IMG/VR virus record: IMGVR_UViG_3300046463_000739
Span: 1 to 36,057 of that record
DNA from: a virus
Strand: one strand, 5' to 3'
Length of the DNA: 36,057 nucleotides
Shown: in pieces, positions 9,021 through 18,296 of the stretch
Layout of the letters: each line of letters opens with the position of its first letter
Position numbering within the stretch: the stretch's first letter is position 1
Notes under the pieces: generated by a model
What the model was told of the DNA's origin: nothing
The model's input: the letters and a program-made list of their open reading frames with translations, nothing else
The model's database searches: none
Made by a program: the position numbers and the translations under genes

Positions 9021-12000
9021 TTACCAAGCGTAGCGGTAGCCTACGTTCACCGAATAAGGCTGTTCGATGCTATCGCCCTTGGTGTATTCCGCGTCGATGA
9101 AGAACTTGTGCTTCTCGGCGGTTTGCAGGATTACCCCGCCACCGATTTCGGCCCGCGAACCTGGTAATTTGCTGTCCAGACTTACGTCGTTGACGCTAAC
9201 ATGGCTGTCACCGGCATGTTCGGTTATCCACGATGCTTTGGCGTATGGCTGCACAGTCATACCGTTATCCAGCTTCATGTTACGACCGAACAGGCTGCCA
9301 ACTCGGCTCTGAACAGAAGTAACGGCGTCCTGTTCGACTTTCAAGCCATTGCTTGCGGTGTAGTCGCCACTGCCCACACGGAACGCTTGCACTTCCAGTT
9401 GTGGTTCGACGAACCAGCCTTGTCCAAGATCGATTTGCTTGCCAACCTCTACGCTAGCCGCGATTGCGTGATTCTTGTATTTGCCATCCACCTTCTTACC
9501 CATATTGCTGGTGATGTCGACCTTGTTGTCCAAGTGGGTGTATTTCAACACGCTGTCCACGTACACGCCGTTTTGGTCGATGTAGGTGGCATAGGTGCCG
9601 AGCATGGCGCTGTCGATTTGGCCTTTGCTGCCTTCGCCGAAGTTCTGACGAGCCTCACCTTTTCCGGCCATACCGCCGAGGTACAGCTTGCCGTTATAGA
9701 AAGGAATGGCCTTGTCGGCGCCGATCTCGAAACCGTTGACCTGTTGCTCAAAGGCACGGCTGGAACCTGTATCGATGCGCTGCTCCTTACCGAAGCCACG
9801 TGTCCACAGACCGCCCTCATCATTGCCCATACGCAACTCGCCCAGTCGTTTAGTCAAGGCATTCATCTGCGCACCGATGAGTCCTGTGGCCGCCGCCTGT
9901 TGAGCGATGGCAGCGTTCGCGCCCTTACTCAGATTCTCCGGCTGAGGATTGCTGATAATTGGTTCAACAGGCGTAATGATACCTCCGGCACCGCCACTGG
10001 TATCACCCACTGGCCCCTCGCCACCGCCCGCACCGCCTCCGGTGTCACCCACTGGCCCCTCGCCATCGCTAGCATCCTCGGCAGTGCCGGCCAGATACCA
10101 GTCATCGCCACGCTGTTCGAGGCCATAACGGAAGGCACCCACGTCGACTTTACCTCCGTACAAATCGAATTTGCCCGCCCCGCCGTTGGTATCCACCAGC
10201 ATCAGTGCACCACCTTGGGCCTGGTGGCCTGAATCGGCAACGATCAGCGTGTGCTCCCCGTCAACTTGCCCTTCAACCTTGAGCAAGTCGCCTTGCAGCG
10301 TCGCCAAGTCAGTGTTGAGCAAGAAGCTGCCATTGCCGCTCAAGTTGCCCACCGTCAGCGTTTTGAACAAGCCGTTGGAGTGGTCGAAATTGACACGGCC
10401 GTCGTTCAACGAAAGAGCACCCAGTGAAGAGTCGCCAGACATTGTCCAGGCGCTTGCACTGTTTACACCAAGCTTATCCAGCCATTGTGCTGCACCTTGC
10501 CAGGTCGAACCATTTTCAAGGCTGATGCCGCTGTCTAGCGTGTGATCATGGTCGATCGAGACGTCACCTTTCAGTCGCGATCCATTGGTGGCGGCCAGTG
10601 TCATGCGTTCGATTTTCTTGCCGCTCGTCTCCACGCTTCGGGAGGCCATCAAGATGTTACCTTCAATCGTAGAACCGTCAGCGGTCACATCAACACCGGC
10701 GAGAACCCCTCCCTTGATAGCATAGTCATTGGAGCTTACAAGGCTGTTTTTGAGATGAACGCTATGCTGGCCCGATGTCAGAGCGGCGATCCCGACAGCG
10801 GTCGTGCCATTGACCACAACACGTGAGTCTTCGAGGCTCAACGATGAACCGACGTCCGTGCCTACATAGACACCGTAGCTGCCATTACCATTTAGAGCGA
10901 TATCGACATTCTTACCGATGACAGTACCCCCAGATGCAGAGTAGAGACCGATGCCGCCGTGCTCACCGTGGATGCGGACATTATCGAACGTTGCTTTCCC
11001 TCCATCGATTTTGCTGCTCCAGAGGCCGTGTTCCCCTAAATCCACTTCACTGTTAGTCAAGTTGAGGGTTGAGCCTGCAGATGCCCGGAGCATAGGTCCT
11101 GATCCGTCGCTGGTGATCTTCACATTGTTCGCATTGACCACACCTCCCTGTTTGGCCGAGATGGCAGTGGCCGTGGAGTGCAGGTTTGACGACTCAACAT
11201 TCACCGTCCCTCCAGCATCAGCAAATACGGCTTCGGCGTTAGAGTTGATGTCCATGTTCTTGACATCAACGGTCGCCCCTTGGGATGCCTGAGCACCATA
11301 GACGTATCCTGATCCGGTGGTGGTTATGCTGCCGCCGTCCAGACTTATGTAAGCCCCCTCTCCTGAGGCCAGCGCTCCACGACTGTTGTCCCCTGAAGTA
11401 CTGATCGCAATATCGTCCGCCACCACCGTCCCGCCTGCGGTGGCGTATATTCCATAGCCCCTGCTATTGGTGGTTTTAATGGAGCCTCCGCGAACGTTGA
11501 CGTTGCTGGTCCCCGTTGTTGCAATTCCATACCCGTTGGCTCCGAGGGTAACGATATCGAGATTGCTGACATCAGCCGTCGCATTCGTCACGAGCAGGCC
11601 CGAACCTGAGCTATTGATCTGCACATTGTTACCAGTTAGCTGGCTTGCTTCTTTGATATCCAACGCGACGCTGTTGCCCAGCGTAGCGACCTCGGTGTTT
11701 TGAAGGTTTACCTTAGAGCCACCAGACGCCACCAACCCAGGCGTATTGGCCATGAGGGAATTCACGGTCATGCCGATTAAATTCAGCGAGGAGCTGGTTT
11801 CTACCAACACAGCGCCCAAGCCAGTGCCTGAAGTGCTGAGAATACCGTTGCTCCAAGTCGCCTCACCGACATTCATAACCCGCAATGCAGGGTTGTTGTC
11901 ACCTGATGTCACCATTTTCCCGGTACCGTTATAGATCGTACCGTCGACGAGCACACCAGTGGCGTGCCCCATGCTGGAAAAGGCCAACAACAAGCTGGCA

Positions 12001-12146
12001 GACAAGGTGCTTAAGGGAAAAGCCGGGACTTTCGAAGATAAGCGCGCAAGACTGTTGCGCGATTCTATTACGTCAGACGCCGACTCCGACGGCACCGTAA
12101 AATAGGTACGTGTACGATTCCATATAGTTCGGTAGATGCTGTTCAT
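9021..12146 (-). CDS. Type Va autotransporter, pertactin-like
   Basis: A 1041-aa secreted or surface protein. The N-terminus NSIYRTIWNRTRTYFTV is an extended signal peptide region, followed by a hydrophobic core LSASLLLAFSSMGHA with probable cleavage after GHA. Residues about 60-690 are a beta-helix passenger of short repeats rich in Asn/Ser/Thr/Gly. A Gly/Pro-rich linker with a repeated GEGPVGDT unit follows at about 690-725. The last 280 residues form the outer-membrane beta-barrel, ending in the usual aromatic residues (GYRYAW). The ATG at 12146 has GAGAG upstream and gives the canonical ESPR; an ATG at 12161 is less likely. No protease catalytic motif is evident, so adhesion is the likeliest role. 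It stands alone. Confidence 0.93.
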   Translation of the reverse strand: MNSIYRTIWNRTRTYFTVPSESASDVIESRNSLARLSSKVPAFPLSTLSASLLLAFSSMGHATGVLVDGTIYNGTGKMVTSGDNNPALRVMNVGEATWSNGILSTSGTGLGAVLVETSSSLNLIGMTVNSLMANTPGLVASGGSKVNLQNTEVATLGNSVALDIKEASQLTGNNVQINSSGSGLLVTNATADVSNLDIVTLGANGYGIATTGTSNVNVRGGSIKTTNSRGYGIYATAGGTVVADDIAISTSGDNSRGALASGEGAYISLDGGSITTTGSGYVYGAQASQGATVDVKNMDINSNAEAVFADAGGTVNVESSNLHSTATAISAKQGGVVNANNVKITSDGSGPMLRASAGSTLNLTNSEVDLGEHGLWSSKIDGGKATFDNVRIHGEHGGIGLYSASGGTVIGKNVDIALNGNGSYGVYVGTDVGSSLSLEDSRVVVNGTTAVGIAALTSGQHSVHLKNSLVSSNDYAIKGGVLAGVDVTADGSTIEGNILMASRSVETSGKKIERMTLAATNGSRLKGDVSIDHDHTLDSGISLENGSTWQGAAQWLDKLGVNSASAWTMSGDSSLGALSLNDGRVNFDHSNGLFKTLTVGNLSGNGSFLLNTDLATLQGDLLKVEGQVDGEHTLIVADSGHQAQGGALMLVDTNGGAGKFDLYGGKVDVGAFRYGLEQRGDDWYLAGTAEDASDGEGPVGDTGGGAGGGEGPVGDTSGGAGGIITPVEPIISNPQPENLSKGANAAIAQQAAATGLIGAQMNALTKRLGELRMGNDEGGLWTRGFGKEQRIDTGSSRAFEQQVNGFEIGADKAIPFYNGKLYLGGMAGKGEARQNFGEGSKGQIDSAMLGTYATYIDQNGVYVDSVLKYTHLDNKVDITSNMGKKVDGKYKNHAIAASVEVGKQIDLGQGWFVEPQLEVQAFRVGSGDYTASNGLKVEQDAVTSVQSRVGSLFGRNMKLDNGMTVQPYAKASWITEHAGDSHVSVNDVSLDSKLPGSRAEIGGGVILQTAEKHKFFIDAEYTKGDSIEQPYSVNVGYRYAW
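9999..10065 (-). repeat. 42-nt tandem duplication in the autotransporter linker
   Basis: A 25-nt block at 9999-10023 recurs with one mismatch at 10041-10065, period 42 nt. It encodes two copies of the Gly-rich unit GEGPVGDT with the following Gly/Ala residues, between passenger and barrel. Such repeats can change copy number by slippage and alter linker length. Confidence 0.7.
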
Positions 12147-12656
12147 AAATCTCTCATTCATTGATTTTTTTCAGGACAGGCTTAAACAAGCCAGCGCTCG
12201 AAAGTCATCGAGGAGAGATTTGAACAGGAAATTTAGCGGCAAAAGTTCAGGCTTTTCCGACGGATCTGTAGGAAATTTCCTACGCGCGAGCCGCTCTCTT
12301 TAGCACTCAGCAATTCGTATTTCCATCTACATGAATCACCACTGGTTTTGTAGACATTCGATGACCGCTATTGGCCGATTGCTGTCCGCTGCGAAGGGCG
12401 CCAGTCGCCCCGTAGAGGACAATCGTCTGTGTGAACTCAGACGCCAAGTCTTTGGGCTCCCGGCATAGTTCATCACAGATTCCGCCCCATTCCCCAGTAG
12501 GTCGCGTCCACAGTTCGTGTCCGTGGCTTGAATGGATTCATCAAATTCAGATCGGCAGAGCTCAACAAATAGCAAAGGGCCCTGACACTTGGCTTGGTGA
12601 TAATGGCTTTCTGACTTCAGTCCGACTACGCTCACGCGCATCAGGAAGGAGGCGCG
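12147..12656. promoter_or_regulatory. Divergent intergenic region between autotransporter and ATPase
   Basis: About 510 bp upstream of both divergent genes. It holds the perfect palindrome at 12268-12283, a degenerate intergenic repeat at about 12360-12400, and a strong AAGGAGG site 5 nt before the ATPase ATG. No convincing gene is present; short frames here have low-quality composition. Confidence 0.5.
12268..12283. promoter_or_regulatory. 16-bp perfect palindrome, candidate operator
   Basis: GTAGGAAATTTCCTAC is self-complementary over 16 bp and lies about 120 bp upstream of the autotransporter start. Its size and symmetry suit a dimeric LuxR/NarL-type or other HTH regulator. The regulator is unknown. 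Confidence 0.5.
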
Positions 12657-15509
12657 ATGAGCCAATACCTTTTGAGTTTTGCAAGGCAGAATCTTGAAGG
12701 ACGCAGTGACGCTTACCTCGTGCTGCTCTGGTGCATGTACCAAGCGAACCAAGGCAAGGGCCGCTATTCTGACCACATCAAAACGCACATCACAGCGGCA
12801 GCTGACCAGTTGCTGGGGCGCAACTATCAGCGGATAGCCGCACGCTTCAAAAAGGTGCTCGACAGTAAGCCCGAATTGGATCGCATACCGCCCTCCGGAC
12901 TCGGTACGTTGGACTACCTTCGCGTAAAAAACTTCCGAGGCTTCGGAGAATTTGGCCCAGACGACACAGGCACCTTTATTCGCTTCGGTAAGCTGAAGAA
13001 TATCTTCTACGCACCCAATGGCGGAGGCAAATCATCGTTGTGCGAGGCGTTGGAAATCGGCACCACTGGCGATATCAAAGAAGCGGCCAGGCGCAAGACT
13101 AAGGTCAATCAGTACATCGCCCGGGGAGAGGTGAGGCCCAGGCTCATGCTGATGGGAACAGACAAGTTGCCAGTCAAGCGAAGCATCAGTTGGTCGGGCT
13201 GTTTCATTGATCGGAACCGTCTTCAAGAGTTTTCGTTGCTGGGCTCCAAGGATACTGGCAGTGCCGAGAGTGATGTCTTGGCCACCTTGTTTGGTTTGGA
13301 GGAACTCCAGGAGGTCATTTCTCGGTTCGTCCGGCCTGAAAGTTTCTCGCTCAAAGCCTTCATGCGTGCTGATCAAGCCGACGCACTGGACATCCTGGAA
13401 CGTGCCAGGGTAAGCCTGGGCCAGCTGCGGCGTAATCACAGAGCAGACCTTCATGCATCGATTTCCGAGAGTTGTAGGCTGCTGGGGCTGAGAGCCGACC
13501 AAGACTTCGATGTGCGCCGAAAGGTCTTGCGGTTGCGCGACACGGTTGAAATGCATATTCGTGGCGCTGAGCGCCTGCGAGCTGCCAAGGCCCCGTTCGC
13601 TATATCTCTAAAGCAAGTCAGGCATATCTGTGCCATCGCCCAGCGCTTGCTCCAACGCAGAGTCGATATCGAGAAGGTGTTTCTGCAGAGAGCCAGCGAG
13701 GTCAATTATCGCGCCGTATATGAGGCATTGGTGGCCATCGAACAGCTACAGGTCGGGGAAGCTTGCCCCGCATGCCTGACGCCCCTCAATCAGGTGGTGA
13801 TGAACCCGTTTGAGAGGGCGCGGGAGCAGATCAAGGCATTGGGTGCACTAGAGTCCCTCAAGCAATCCAAGCAGAGAAATGACACCCGAATCGCGCTCTG
13901 GGCTTCACGAGTAGCGACCGGAATCGGCGAGGTGAAAGGCAATGAACACGCTGATGTTCCCTGTCCACTGAACATGGACGAATTGGAGGTGGAGCTTGCA
14001 AAGTTCCATGCCGCTACCGATCGCTCGGAAGTGGCGCCGTCCGTTCTCGACTCGTTTCTGAAGCTTTGTGCGCGGAGTGCAGATCAGCTCGAGGACTACT
14101 TGCGCACCTGTGAGCGCAAGCTTGGGGAGGTTGGCCAGGCAGACGCCCAGGCAGCTCGCCTCGAAGAACGGGTGACGCAGTTGAAAGAAATTGACGAATT
14201 GCTGAAGCATCAGTTCGACAGAAAAAAACTGGCGATAAGCGAGTTCAAGGTCGCCAACGACCAGATGGCAGACCTGATAAAGCAAAAAGCGGCATTGCTC
14301 AACGATGCAGTCGACAATAGCCACTTCAACCAGTTGCTCAAGGATCTGGAAGCTGAGTACCGAACGCTGTACCGCGACTTGCTGGATTACAAGCTTGAGC
14401 TAGAGAAAGCGCGAATCACCGGGATCGAAGCCAAAGCTGCGGAGTACTACCGCGCGATCAACAACCACGACGATGACCATGAGCAGATCGCGTCGTTGAC
14501 CTTCGACCGCCAGGGGGATAGCTATCGGATCAAGATCACCAGCGTGGACGGATCATTCCTTGATGCGTTTGCGGTGCTTAGTGAAGGGCATCTGCGAGCG
14601 TTGGGTTTGTCCATCCTCTTGGCGATGGCTGAGAAGAACAACTTCCCGCTCATCGTATTCGATGACGTCGTCAATGCGATCGACACCGATCACCGATCGA
14701 ACATCATCGAGCTGTTCTTCAGCGACGCATACCTGCGTCGGATCCAAATGGTCGTCACCACCCATGACCGTCTTTTCTGGGAGCGTTTCTGTATCATTGC
14801 CCAGCGTCACGCGCAACAGGTTCAGTACACCAGTAATGTTCTCAGCTATACGAACAAAGGCATTCTAGTCATTGATCACGTGGGCAGCTTCCAGGAAAAA
14901 ATTCTTGCCGCGCTTTCCGTATTCGATGTGCGTCAAGCGCTGCTCTATTGTCGTATCTGGTTCGAATCCATGGTGCTTGAGTTCTGCATAGAAAATGAAG
15001 TCAAAGTAACCGCGCACTTTAATAAATCACAGCTCAAGAAGAGCATGTACCTGCAGGTCAGCCTGGAACACACCTTTTCGCTGGTGGAACCGTTCATTGA
15101 CTATGACCTGTCATACTTCAATTTCATCAAGAATGACCTGGTCAACTGGGGTGGGCAGAACCAGGAGCACCATGCCTTCGACGAGGGCAGCCTGAACTTC
15201 GTGCACTCAAAGACTAGCAGTGAGGTCGTTAAAATCTACGACGCCATCCGCTATTTGGAGTGCCAGCTATTTGCAGCTAAGAAGAGAGAATCAGGCGTCA
15301 AATGTCTTGCCGACCTGAACGGTGATATCGCGTGGAGGCAACGCAAGCTTGCAAGACTCGCCAAGGCGCCAGAAGAGGTTCAGAAGGAGCACCAGTCGGC
15401 GTTGAAAGCTCTGGAAAAGCGCGCGGTAGAACTCGACCAAGAGCTTCAGTTCATCGAACAGTGTCTCGCCAGCGTCGCTCAGCGCGAGCAAGCTCAAGAA
15501 TTGCCATGA
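12657..15509 (+). CDS. Rad50/RloC-like ATPase with C-terminal RxxxE...H nuclease-like domain
   Basis: A 950-aa cytoplasmic SMC/Rad50-type ATPase. Residues 1-80 are an unusual N-terminal extension. Walker A is APNGGGKSS (119-127). Coiled-coil arms flank a CxxC hook (C370-C373) and continue to about 600. The ABC signature is LSEGH (641-645), Walker B PLIVFDD (664-670), D-loop NAID, and H-loop His703. The region 745-875 contains R766-x3-E770 and His850 in NFVHS, similar in layout to the anticodon-nuclease triad of PrrC and RloC. In those families ATPase activity holds the tRNase in check until phage infection or DNA damage. The C-terminus is coiled coil. The ATG has AAGGAGG 5 nt upstream. It stands alone. 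ATPase call is sure; the nuclease call is inference. Confidence 0.85.
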
Positions 15510-15848
15510 CCTCTGTTCCGCTTGGAGCAGATCTGGCTGTTTTGGGTTCATATTCTGCGAGGACTCAACGGCCGCTTTTGACCGTGTCCTGCCTGTTACG
15601 GCTGACCAGGTTGGCTGCAAAATCTCACTTCAGATGAAAGTCGCTTTCCCTCAAGCGTAGTCTCTCAATTGCAGCTTGAAGTCTAGGGCGATCATGAGCC
15701 TACCCAGAACGCCAAAAAACCGGCCAACTTCGTTTCCGCAAATAAGTGTCCACCCCTTGATTCCAGAGGCCTCCAGAGCATCAACGAATAGTGCCTAGCG
15801 GAAACGAATACAAGTTAAAGCATTGATATATAAGGATTAATCTTCGGA
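15510..15848. other. Intergenic region left of the tRNA fragment, with an 11-bp inverted repeat
   Basis: No convincing gene. TTCGTTTCCGC (15729-15739) is repeated inverted as GCGGAAACGAA (15798-15808), 34 bp before the tRNA-like core ends its left flank. This could be the P-arm of an attachment site. A stretch near 15567 (GGCCGCTTTTGACCG) resembles degenerate intergenic sequence common in Pseudomonas, from memory. Confidence 0.45.
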
Positions 15849-15904
15849 CTTGAAAACCGTCGACTGTAACAGGTCCATGAGTTCGAATCCCATCGCCTCC
15901 GCCA
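15849..15904 (+). tRNA. 3' half of tRNA-Ser(UGA), attachment-site core
   Basis: The sequence begins in the anticodon loop (CTTGAAA, anticodon TGA), continues through the 3' anticodon strand, a long variable arm, the TPsiC arm with GTTCGAATC, the 3' acceptor strand GGCGGAGG-complement (CGCCTCC) and an encoded GCCA. No D-arm or 5' acceptor strand is found upstream, and the 5' anticodon strand pairs imperfectly. It is therefore a fragment, not a working tRNA. Elements that integrate in the 3' end of a tRNA leave exactly such a copy at the far junction; the intact gene should lie elsewhere, to the left. Confidence 0.8.
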
Positions 15905-16374: not shown

Positions 16375-16640
16375 TGTAGCGATACAAACAATTGTTTTAT
16401 AGGGATAAATTATTTTCTAGGCTGGCAAAAAATCCGTTTTCTTGTGCTTATGCAGGCGATAAACCGTGGTCTGTAGCGGAGGTTTTGCGCACTCCATATC
16501 ACATTGAAACTCTCAACCGGCGGCCACCAATTTTGTATTTGCTTCCTTGTAATTGAAAGTCCAATTACCATTCGGTCGCTGCTCATAACACATGGTCTTC
16601 CATGGCTTGTGACAGGTATTCTTCTAGAGCGATGCAGGCA
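16375..16640. other. Non-coding stretch
   Basis: About 266 bp of lower-GC sequence without a convincing gene, presumably holding the promoter of the membrane-protein gene. Nothing else recognised. Confidence 0.4.
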
Positions 16641-17294
16641 ATGAAAAGTAAAACTGTTCAAGTACCCACATGGATGTTCTGGCTCGCGGCGTTTGCACTT
16701 TTGTCCCTAGTGGTCGGATTTGTTGCGAAAGCTACTGGCGGATGGCCGAGGTTGGAGAACTTTCTCCAAAACTATGCGCCAGCTTGGATCCAGGCGGTCG
16801 GAAGCATTGCTGCAATTCTAGCGGCCTCCGGTATCGCCAATAAGCAAGCCAGTCATGCTCGGGATATAGAAAATGAACAACGTATTCGCAACGAAGTGCA
16901 AAAGCTCGAGGTCATCAAAGCATTGATGATTAGGTCCATGACCATGTCGCGCGAAGTAATTCAGGCATTAGAGAGTAGGAAATTGGAGGATTTTTCGGTG
17001 GTTACTCCATCAATGATGCGTGATGCTCATCAAACACTACTTCTGCTACCTATTTTTGAGATTCCGAATGCGATGCTATCGCTTGATGTATTGACTGTCG
17101 GCAGAGTCTTGGAGTGTCTGAGTGAGACATGGGAAGCCTATGTCGCCGAGGTGGAGAAAATGGAGGCACTGGACACTCCAATGGTAGGCCCTCTCCACAC
17201 GTTAGCAGGTGAGCTTTCGCAGATCAGCGAGGCAGCTTTTGAAGACTGTTTAAAAGAATTGCGTCAAAGGAGAGTGTTGATAAATGATTTATAA
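16641..17294 (+). CDS. Membrane-anchored protein, unknown function
   Basis: A 217-aa protein from the ATG at 16641 (earlier ATGs at 16602 and 16632 have no better ribosome-binding site). Residues about 11-30 (WMFWLAAFALLSLVVGFVAK) and 49-66 (WIQAVGSIAAILAASGIA) are membrane segments. The remainder, from about 68, is a soluble helical, coiled-coil-like domain facing the cytoplasm if the N-terminus is inside. The gene lies alone in a low-GC accessory block beside AbiV and MltR-like genes. The family is not recognised; membrane sensors or effectors of this size are common among phage-defence accessory genes, but that is only context. Confidence 0.65.
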   Translation: MKSKTVQVPTWMFWLAAFALLSLVVGFVAKATGGWPRLENFLQNYAPAWIQAVGSIAAILAASGIANKQASHARDIENEQRIRNEVQKLEVIKALMIRSMTMSREVIQALESRKLEDFSVVTPSMMRDAHQTLLLLPIFEIPNAMLSLDVLTVGRVLECLSETWEAYVAEVEKMEALDTPMVGPLHTLAGELSQISEAAFEDCLKELRQRRVLINDL

Positions 17295-17580: not shown

Positions 17581-17636
17581 AGTTGACCCATACTGATGTA
17601 ATTTAAAGAATTTAATTTTCCATGGAAGAGAATTCG

Positions 17637-18296
17637 ATGCTCTCACTGGTTCAGATAGACGATTACATAGACGCTCTATCAAACAATGCCGGATCCTTGA
17701 TTAAGGAGGCCGAAATCCTGTACGACAATCAGCACTATGCGCGAGCCTTTACCTTGTCTCATATCGCGAGGGAGGAAATCGCGAAGTGCCTAATGCTGCA
17801 AGCCGCAGGGGTTAAGGTCTTGGCAGGGCATGGGGTAGATTTTAAGAAGCTTTTCAAAAGGCTCAGAAACCATGAGCAAAAGCTCATTTCAGAAGGACTG
17901 CAGAACTCTTTATTCGCGTTGGGTACTGGCGATTCAGAATTCGGTCGCCTGCTGCTGAAAACTGTCACAGCAGCAAGCGAGCATAGAAACAATCGAAAAA
18001 ATGAGTCTTTATACGTAGGCTTCGCCGAAGACCGCATTTCGAAACCGGCGGAGGGGTTTAGCGAAAAACAGGCAGATCGCAACATCAAGCTCGCCCAATA
18101 CGCGCTGAGGGATCAGAAGCACAACGCTGTCTTGATGGGTAAATTTTCCCTTCGTGAGCCAATTGAAATGCCCGAAATCACTCCGGGTGATTTAAAAGAT
18201 CAGGATTTGGACTCGTTAATGAAGGACTTAGCACAGGCGCTCCTTCGGATTCGAGAGGCCAAAAATTACGAAGAAGATTCAGACGACCGCCAATGA
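17637..18296 (+). CDS. AbiV-family abortive infection protein (HEPN-like)
   Basis: A 219-aa all-helical protein with the AbiV layout (PF18728): YARAFTLSHIAREEIAK at about 34-50 with the conserved EEIAK, LFKRLRNHEQK at 72-82 with His79, and RKNESLYVGF at 120-129 matching the R..LYV motif. AbiV of Lactococcus blocks translation upon phage infection; the family is related to HEPN ribonucleases. The ATG at 17637 has GGAAGAG upstream (spacing about 8); an ATG at 17622 has no such site. It is monocistronic with a terminator directly after, as for phage morons or defence cargo. Activity in this organism is inferred. Confidence 0.75.
   Translation: MLSLVQIDDYIDALSNNAGSLIKEAEILYDNQHYARAFTLSHIAREEIAKCLMLQAAGVKVLAGHGVDFKKLFKRLRNHEQKLISEGLQNSLFALGTGDSEFGRLLLKTVTAASEHRNNRKNESLYVGFAEDRISKPAEGFSEKQADRNIKLAQYALRDQKHNAVLMGKFSLREPIEMPEITPGDLKDQDLDSLMKDLAQALLRIREAKNYEEDSDDRQ

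Follow-up and report, generated by a model that had tools for sequence, protein, structure and literature searches.

Locus and gene

The window, by which we denote the whole stretch of 36,057 nt analysed here (IMG/VR virus record IMGVR_UViG_3300046463_000739), belongs to a temperate phage, a Pseudomonas-type prophage. Its left part encodes a VapE-like protein, a CP76-type regulator, an S24 repressor and an integrase, and its right part provides capsid, tail, baseplate hub, an endolysin-like protein and Rz. These two sets of phage genes are separated by a cargo stretch of lower GC content at 8.3-20 kb, which contains genes for a GNAT acetyltransferase, an autotransporter, an ABC ATPase with a predicted HEPN domain (hereafter the ABC-HEPN gene), an unknown 230-aa ORF and an AbiV-family HEPN protein. 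The ABC-HEPN gene has a good ribosome-binding site ahead of its ATG (AGGAGG at 12647-12652), and the features on which its annotation relies are the following:

12643..12652 (+): Shine-Dalgarno-like AGGAAGGAGG, read directly from the sequence
12657..15509 (+): ABC-HEPN gene, 950 aa, ATG start; supported by motifs, homologues and purifying selection

Comparison with the homologues in loci L002 and L005 yields a dN/dS (NG86) of about 0.10, denoting purifying selection and hence a protein that is maintained.

Domain architecture and conservation

The protein is composed of an N-terminal helical region, an ABC head split by coiled coils and an all-helical C-terminal domain, with the following elements:

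12657..12905 (+): N-terminal helical region, residues 1-83, with MSQYLLSFA invariant in close homologues (homologue alignment, model)
13011..13037 (+): Walker A APNGGGKSS, residues 119-127 (motif reading, alignment)
13353..13745 (+): ascending coiled-coil arm, residues 233-363 (predicted helices in the low-confidence whole model, where this stretch is mostly at pLDDT 55-89)
13764..13775 (+): zinc-hook motif CPAC, residues 370-373 (CxxC in 49/49 covering sequences)
13806..14459 (+): descending coiled-coil arm, residues 384-601 (full-length model)
14577..14591 (+): ABC signature LSEGH, residues 641-645 (motif reading, alignment)
14646..14666 (+): Walker B PLIVFDD, residues 664-670, with DD as in the VIDD of RloC (alignment)
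14763..14765 (+): H-loop His703 (motif reading, alignment)
14889..15269 (+): predicted HEPN domain, residues about 745-871 (predicted fold, structural matches)
14952..14966 (+): R766-x3-E770, invariant in 50/50 sequences
15147..15173 (+): W831-x3-N835-x3-H839 with the predicted catalytic His839, invariant in 50/50 sequences
15204..15206 (+): His850, conserved within the window's own clade but not beyond it (26/50)
15273..15497 (+): helical tail at the C terminus (residues 873-947), largely missing from distant relatives

A preliminary description of this DNA had read a series of ATPase and nuclease motifs in the protein, and all of them were found at the residues it named (APNGGGKSS at 119-127, CPAC at 370-373, LSEGH at 641-645, PLIVFDD at 664-670, H703, R766-x3-E770, and H850 in NFVHS). 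Across 22 homologues with identities of 58-97%, those motif residues that were tested are conserved. In an alignment of 50 sequences extending to about 20% identity, the domain order is retained (N-terminal helical region, ABC head, CPxC-hooked coiled coils, C-terminal all-helical domain), and the head and hook motifs are invariant from 97% down to that level.

Residues 1-80 had been put forward as a new N-terminal extension. The extension exists, but it is not new: the relatives shown have a region of similar length ahead of their ABC head, and it is therefore a feature of the family. The PDC-S06 (RloC-like) proteins of loci L073 and L074 also begin with about 85 aa before their ABC head, which shows that such additions are not confined to a single ABC-HEPN group.

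Fold of the C-terminal domain and active site

The C-terminal domain (residues 724-880) was modelled with 34 homologous sequences, reaching a pTM of 0.75 and a pLDDT of 75.7, and was compared with 746 solved chains. HEPN domains take nearly all of the top 25 places, with Z values of 8.9 to 5.7 that are middling, as helical-bundle fold scores can be by chance; unrelated helical proteins lie mostly below Z 5.7. The top HEPN matches are 2q00 and 2hsb (both Z 8.9), the HEPN domain of sacsin (8.4) and SO_3166 (7.4), and the RNases Csm6 and the toxin HepT are also among the HEPN structures matched. Foldseek returns the same HEPN proteins as leading matches, with probabilities of 0.66-0.87 and weak E-values. 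The comparison could have spoken against the preliminary description by giving an unrelated fold; it gave HEPN instead, and we assign a predicted HEPN fold to this domain. Together with motif conservation, the predicted fold bears out the proposed fusion of a Rad50-like zinc-hook ATPase to a HEPN-type domain. Searched alone, the domain has no Pfam or PADLOC match and a non-significant PHROG match, and no match to the model was found in the viral structure library. The full-length model, built with 22 close homologues, is poor (pTM 0.33) and serves as weak support only, although it does match Rad50 and Lamassu LmuB structures.

Within the 50-sequence alignment, R766, E770, W831, N835 and H839 are invariant, and the position of R759 is occupied by R in 48 sequences and by K in the other 2. 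The initial choice of R766 and E770 as active-site residues is upheld by this invariance. The same cannot be said of His850, initially taken for the catalytic histidine: position 850 is H in 26 sequences, D in 21 and E in 2, and the presence of D or E in 23 of 50 rules this residue out as a universal catalytic one. The universally conserved histidine is H839, in N835-x3-H839, and on this conservation we predict H839, not H850, to be the active-site histidine, correcting the site to be examined.

The canonical HEPN active-site motif is R-x4-6-H. The window protein has N835-x3-H839 in its place, which resembles the N-x-x-S-H motif of many RloC-type members, as seen in the RloC-type controls (INRESH, VNDGSH, NEYSH); the AAA_13 protein of L068 reads NHEHHAF where the window protein reads NQEHHAF. 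The loop from N835 to H850 has a pLDDT under 50 in the C-terminal domain model, so that we can only infer the geometry of the active site.

Distribution, mobility and neighbouring genes

A scan of genome contigs recovered 22 loci whose homologues match along their full length at 58-97% identity, hosted mostly by Pseudomonas and Stutzerimonas and also by Achromobacter, Mesopusillimonas and Billgrantia. Relatives are also present in 31 plasmid records (25-30% identity over the ABC part, among the matches listed) and in viral contigs, where alignment queries detected ten distant and three intermediate relatives after searches of a phage collection, and of viral contigs with a single sequence, had returned none. 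The tree sets the window's clade (support 0.99) against a plasmid-like clade (1.0). The gene family is thus found on prophages, plasmids and chromosomes, and its spread is patchy, with 2 full-length relatives besides the query's own genome in the class searched (274 genomes). The DNA shared between loci has the following extent:

12546..15584 (no strand): approximate extent of the DNA common to several loci, a one-gene mobile unit (DNA comparison; 12409-15577 with L002 and L003)

Similarity between the window and the 22 loci is limited to the ABC-HEPN gene and short flanks, plus one further 247-base match in L008, which indicates that the gene moves as a single gene. This agrees with its earlier portrayal as a stand-alone gene with no restriction-modification (R-M) partner nearby, since the common DNA contains this gene only and the scanned ORFs of the window include no recognised R-M gene close to it.

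A conserved partner gene was sought by clustering all flank ORFs of the homologous loci. ORFs overlapping the ABC-HEPN gene aside, the sole long shared flank gene encodes a divergent DUF4365-domain protein of 1,306-1,321 aa, which was set aside as an essential partner because it occurs at full length in 8 of the 22 loci and was not seen at that length in the others. This protein, with its DUF4365 domain at the N terminus, lies divergently upstream of the ABC-HEPN gene in L010 (3772-7725, minus strand) and in seven other loci, and it is itself a possible defence protein.

Genes found within about 8 kb of the homologues include Avs2 (L003), Tmn (L008), a type IIG R-M system (L005), an nSTAND NTPase (L023) and Lamassu LmuA (L089). 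Hachiman-like and RT-type defence matches are among the scanned neighbours within 10 kb, and the window copy resides in a prophage that also has AbiV. Defence genes in several neighbourhoods, together with the mobile single-gene unit, support as likely the anti-phage role first suggested for this gene; the neighbourhood fits such a role without proving it.

Relationship to known ABC ATPase systems

RloC is a zinc-responsive anticodon nuclease, and the window protein had been regarded as a divergent member of its family. The two have the same domain order, with an ABC head split by coiled coils bearing a CxxC hook, a DD Walker B and a C-terminal HEPN domain with R-x3-E; many RloC members also have N at -4 of the His, as here, and both genes are usually stand-alone. 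The published RloC triad is R-x3-E-x36-52-H, and Arg692, Glu696 and His737 of RloC are each required for cleavage activity (PMC2610378). The R-x3-E element is present in the window protein, but the E-to-H spacing of 68 (68-92 across its family) falls outside the published range. A profile search gave no AAA_13 (PF13166) match, and the PADLOC PDC-S06 (RloC-like) models match the ATPase alone (27.7 bits, 2.3e-7, residues 472-705), far below LmuB, whereas control RloC-like proteins match them at full length with hundreds of bits. Comparing HEPN-region profiles with the RloC type brings the His motifs into register but leaves R-x3-E out of register, and the best probability is only 32%. The W-x3-N-x3-H motif and the N-terminal helical region of about 80 aa further distinguish the window protein. 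Membership of RloC is hence unlikely; by its anatomy the protein would work like RloC, but it is better placed in an ABC-HEPN family of its own. PrrC also combines an ABC ATPase with a HEPN domain containing R-x3-E and His, but it has no coiled-coil/zinc-hook insert, is half the size and is linked to a type I R-M system; the window protein has the hook and, among the ORFs scanned, no recognised R-M neighbour.

The closest ABC-coiled-coil profile in PADLOC, and the best PADLOC match, is the Lamassu sensor LmuB (PDLC03859, 66.6 bits, 6.5e-19, residues 106-705). The window protein has an LmuB-like ABC head and coiled coil, a zinc hook occurs in many LmuB members, and Foldseek also matches LmuB structures, all of which would suit a Lamassu-type sensor needing a separate LmuA effector, with the C-terminal domain as a mere docking or RNA-binding part. 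LmuB, however, is about 650 aa long with a generally E-to-Q Walker B (PMC10586767), and it has no HEPN domain and acts with LmuA/LmuC, whereas the window protein shows DD at that site and possesses, in addition, a HEPN domain that includes invariant polar residues. The DNA common to the loci is one gene, and of 31 genomes or records 2 have a strong LmuA match, which lies close to the ABC-HEPN homologue in L089 only. As LmuA is not linked as a rule, we rejected membership of LmuB, and the sensor reading as a whole is very improbable. The similarity of head and hook to Rad50 could also point to an SbcC/Rad50-type protein that acts in DNA repair, carries an accessory helical domain and takes no part in defence; the patchy spread, the mobility as a single-gene unit on prophages, plasmids and chromosomes, and the HEPN fold with invariant R, E, N and H all argue against this, and we give it marginally less credence still.

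Besides RloC and PrrC, a 2013 survey of the HEPN superfamily reported further ABC-HEPN fusions, some of them in prophages, and proposed the prophage ones as anti-phage (PMC3710099). Its APECO1_4465 and ERFG_01251 groups, compared here by description only, likewise join an ABC ATPase to a C-terminal HEPN domain, and the first of them occurs in prophages. Literature on the exact family was not found in the collection searched, an absence that is not proof.

Proposed function

We propose, with a probability of roughly 0.7, that the protein is a stand-alone, DNA-triggered ABC-HEPN RNase that protects against phages by halting translation in infection, its RNA target and trigger being assigned by analogy. 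It is most likely a single-gene anti-phage suicide system, RloC-like in its working and forming an uncatalogued family of its own. Judging from what Rad50, RloC and Lamassu do, the head, which resembles Rad50 and LmuB, and the coiled coils with their zinc hook would probably form a dimer that clamps the ends of DNA or phage DNA of unusual structure. At rest, the C-terminal HEPN domain may be restrained by the ATPase part, as in RloC, and infection would bring about an ATP-dependent change in the head that sets this domain free. The predicted fold and residue invariance suggest a metal-independent RNase site made up of R766, E770, N835 and H839, which would cut RNA needed for translation, by analogy most likely tRNA, and the infected cell would then stop growing ahead of phage release, in an abortive infection. 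We are less committed to cleavage of the tRNA anticodon in particular, which we place somewhat below even odds.

More tentative still is the notion that the protein constitutes a one-gene counterpart of Lamassu, in which an LmuB-like sensor of DNA structure and an RNase share one chain, so that phage or plasmid DNA ends directly trigger RNA cleavage with no separate effector, and in which the ABC-HEPN family stands apart from RloC and has no entry in defence catalogues. Were the proposed RNase function correct, the DNA-sensing ATPases that work through RNA cleavage, a small set, would be joined by an uncatalogued single-gene defence family whose members occur in Pseudomonas and in further bacteria as well as on plasmids and prophages. 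The fused chain would place the DNA sensing and RNase release of Rad50-like defence proteins in one polypeptide, making the link between them testable.

Other features of the cargo region

The AbiV-family HEPN protein (17622-18296, plus strand; TIGR04498, 5e-32) is another HEPN-type candidate for a defence role and lies 2 kb downstream of the ABC-HEPN gene. Between the two genes, positions 15850-15904 (plus strand) resemble a tRNA-Ser over its 3' half (anticodon loop with TGA, T-arm and acceptor with CCA) without a whole tRNA, and are possibly a phage attachment core. The 230-aa ORF (16602-17294, plus strand), with no confident family match, sits between this attachment-like site and AbiV. The autotransporter (9021-12161, minus strand) has a pertactin-like passenger and an ESPR signal, and its gene contains a 42-nt tandem direct repeat at 9981-10064.
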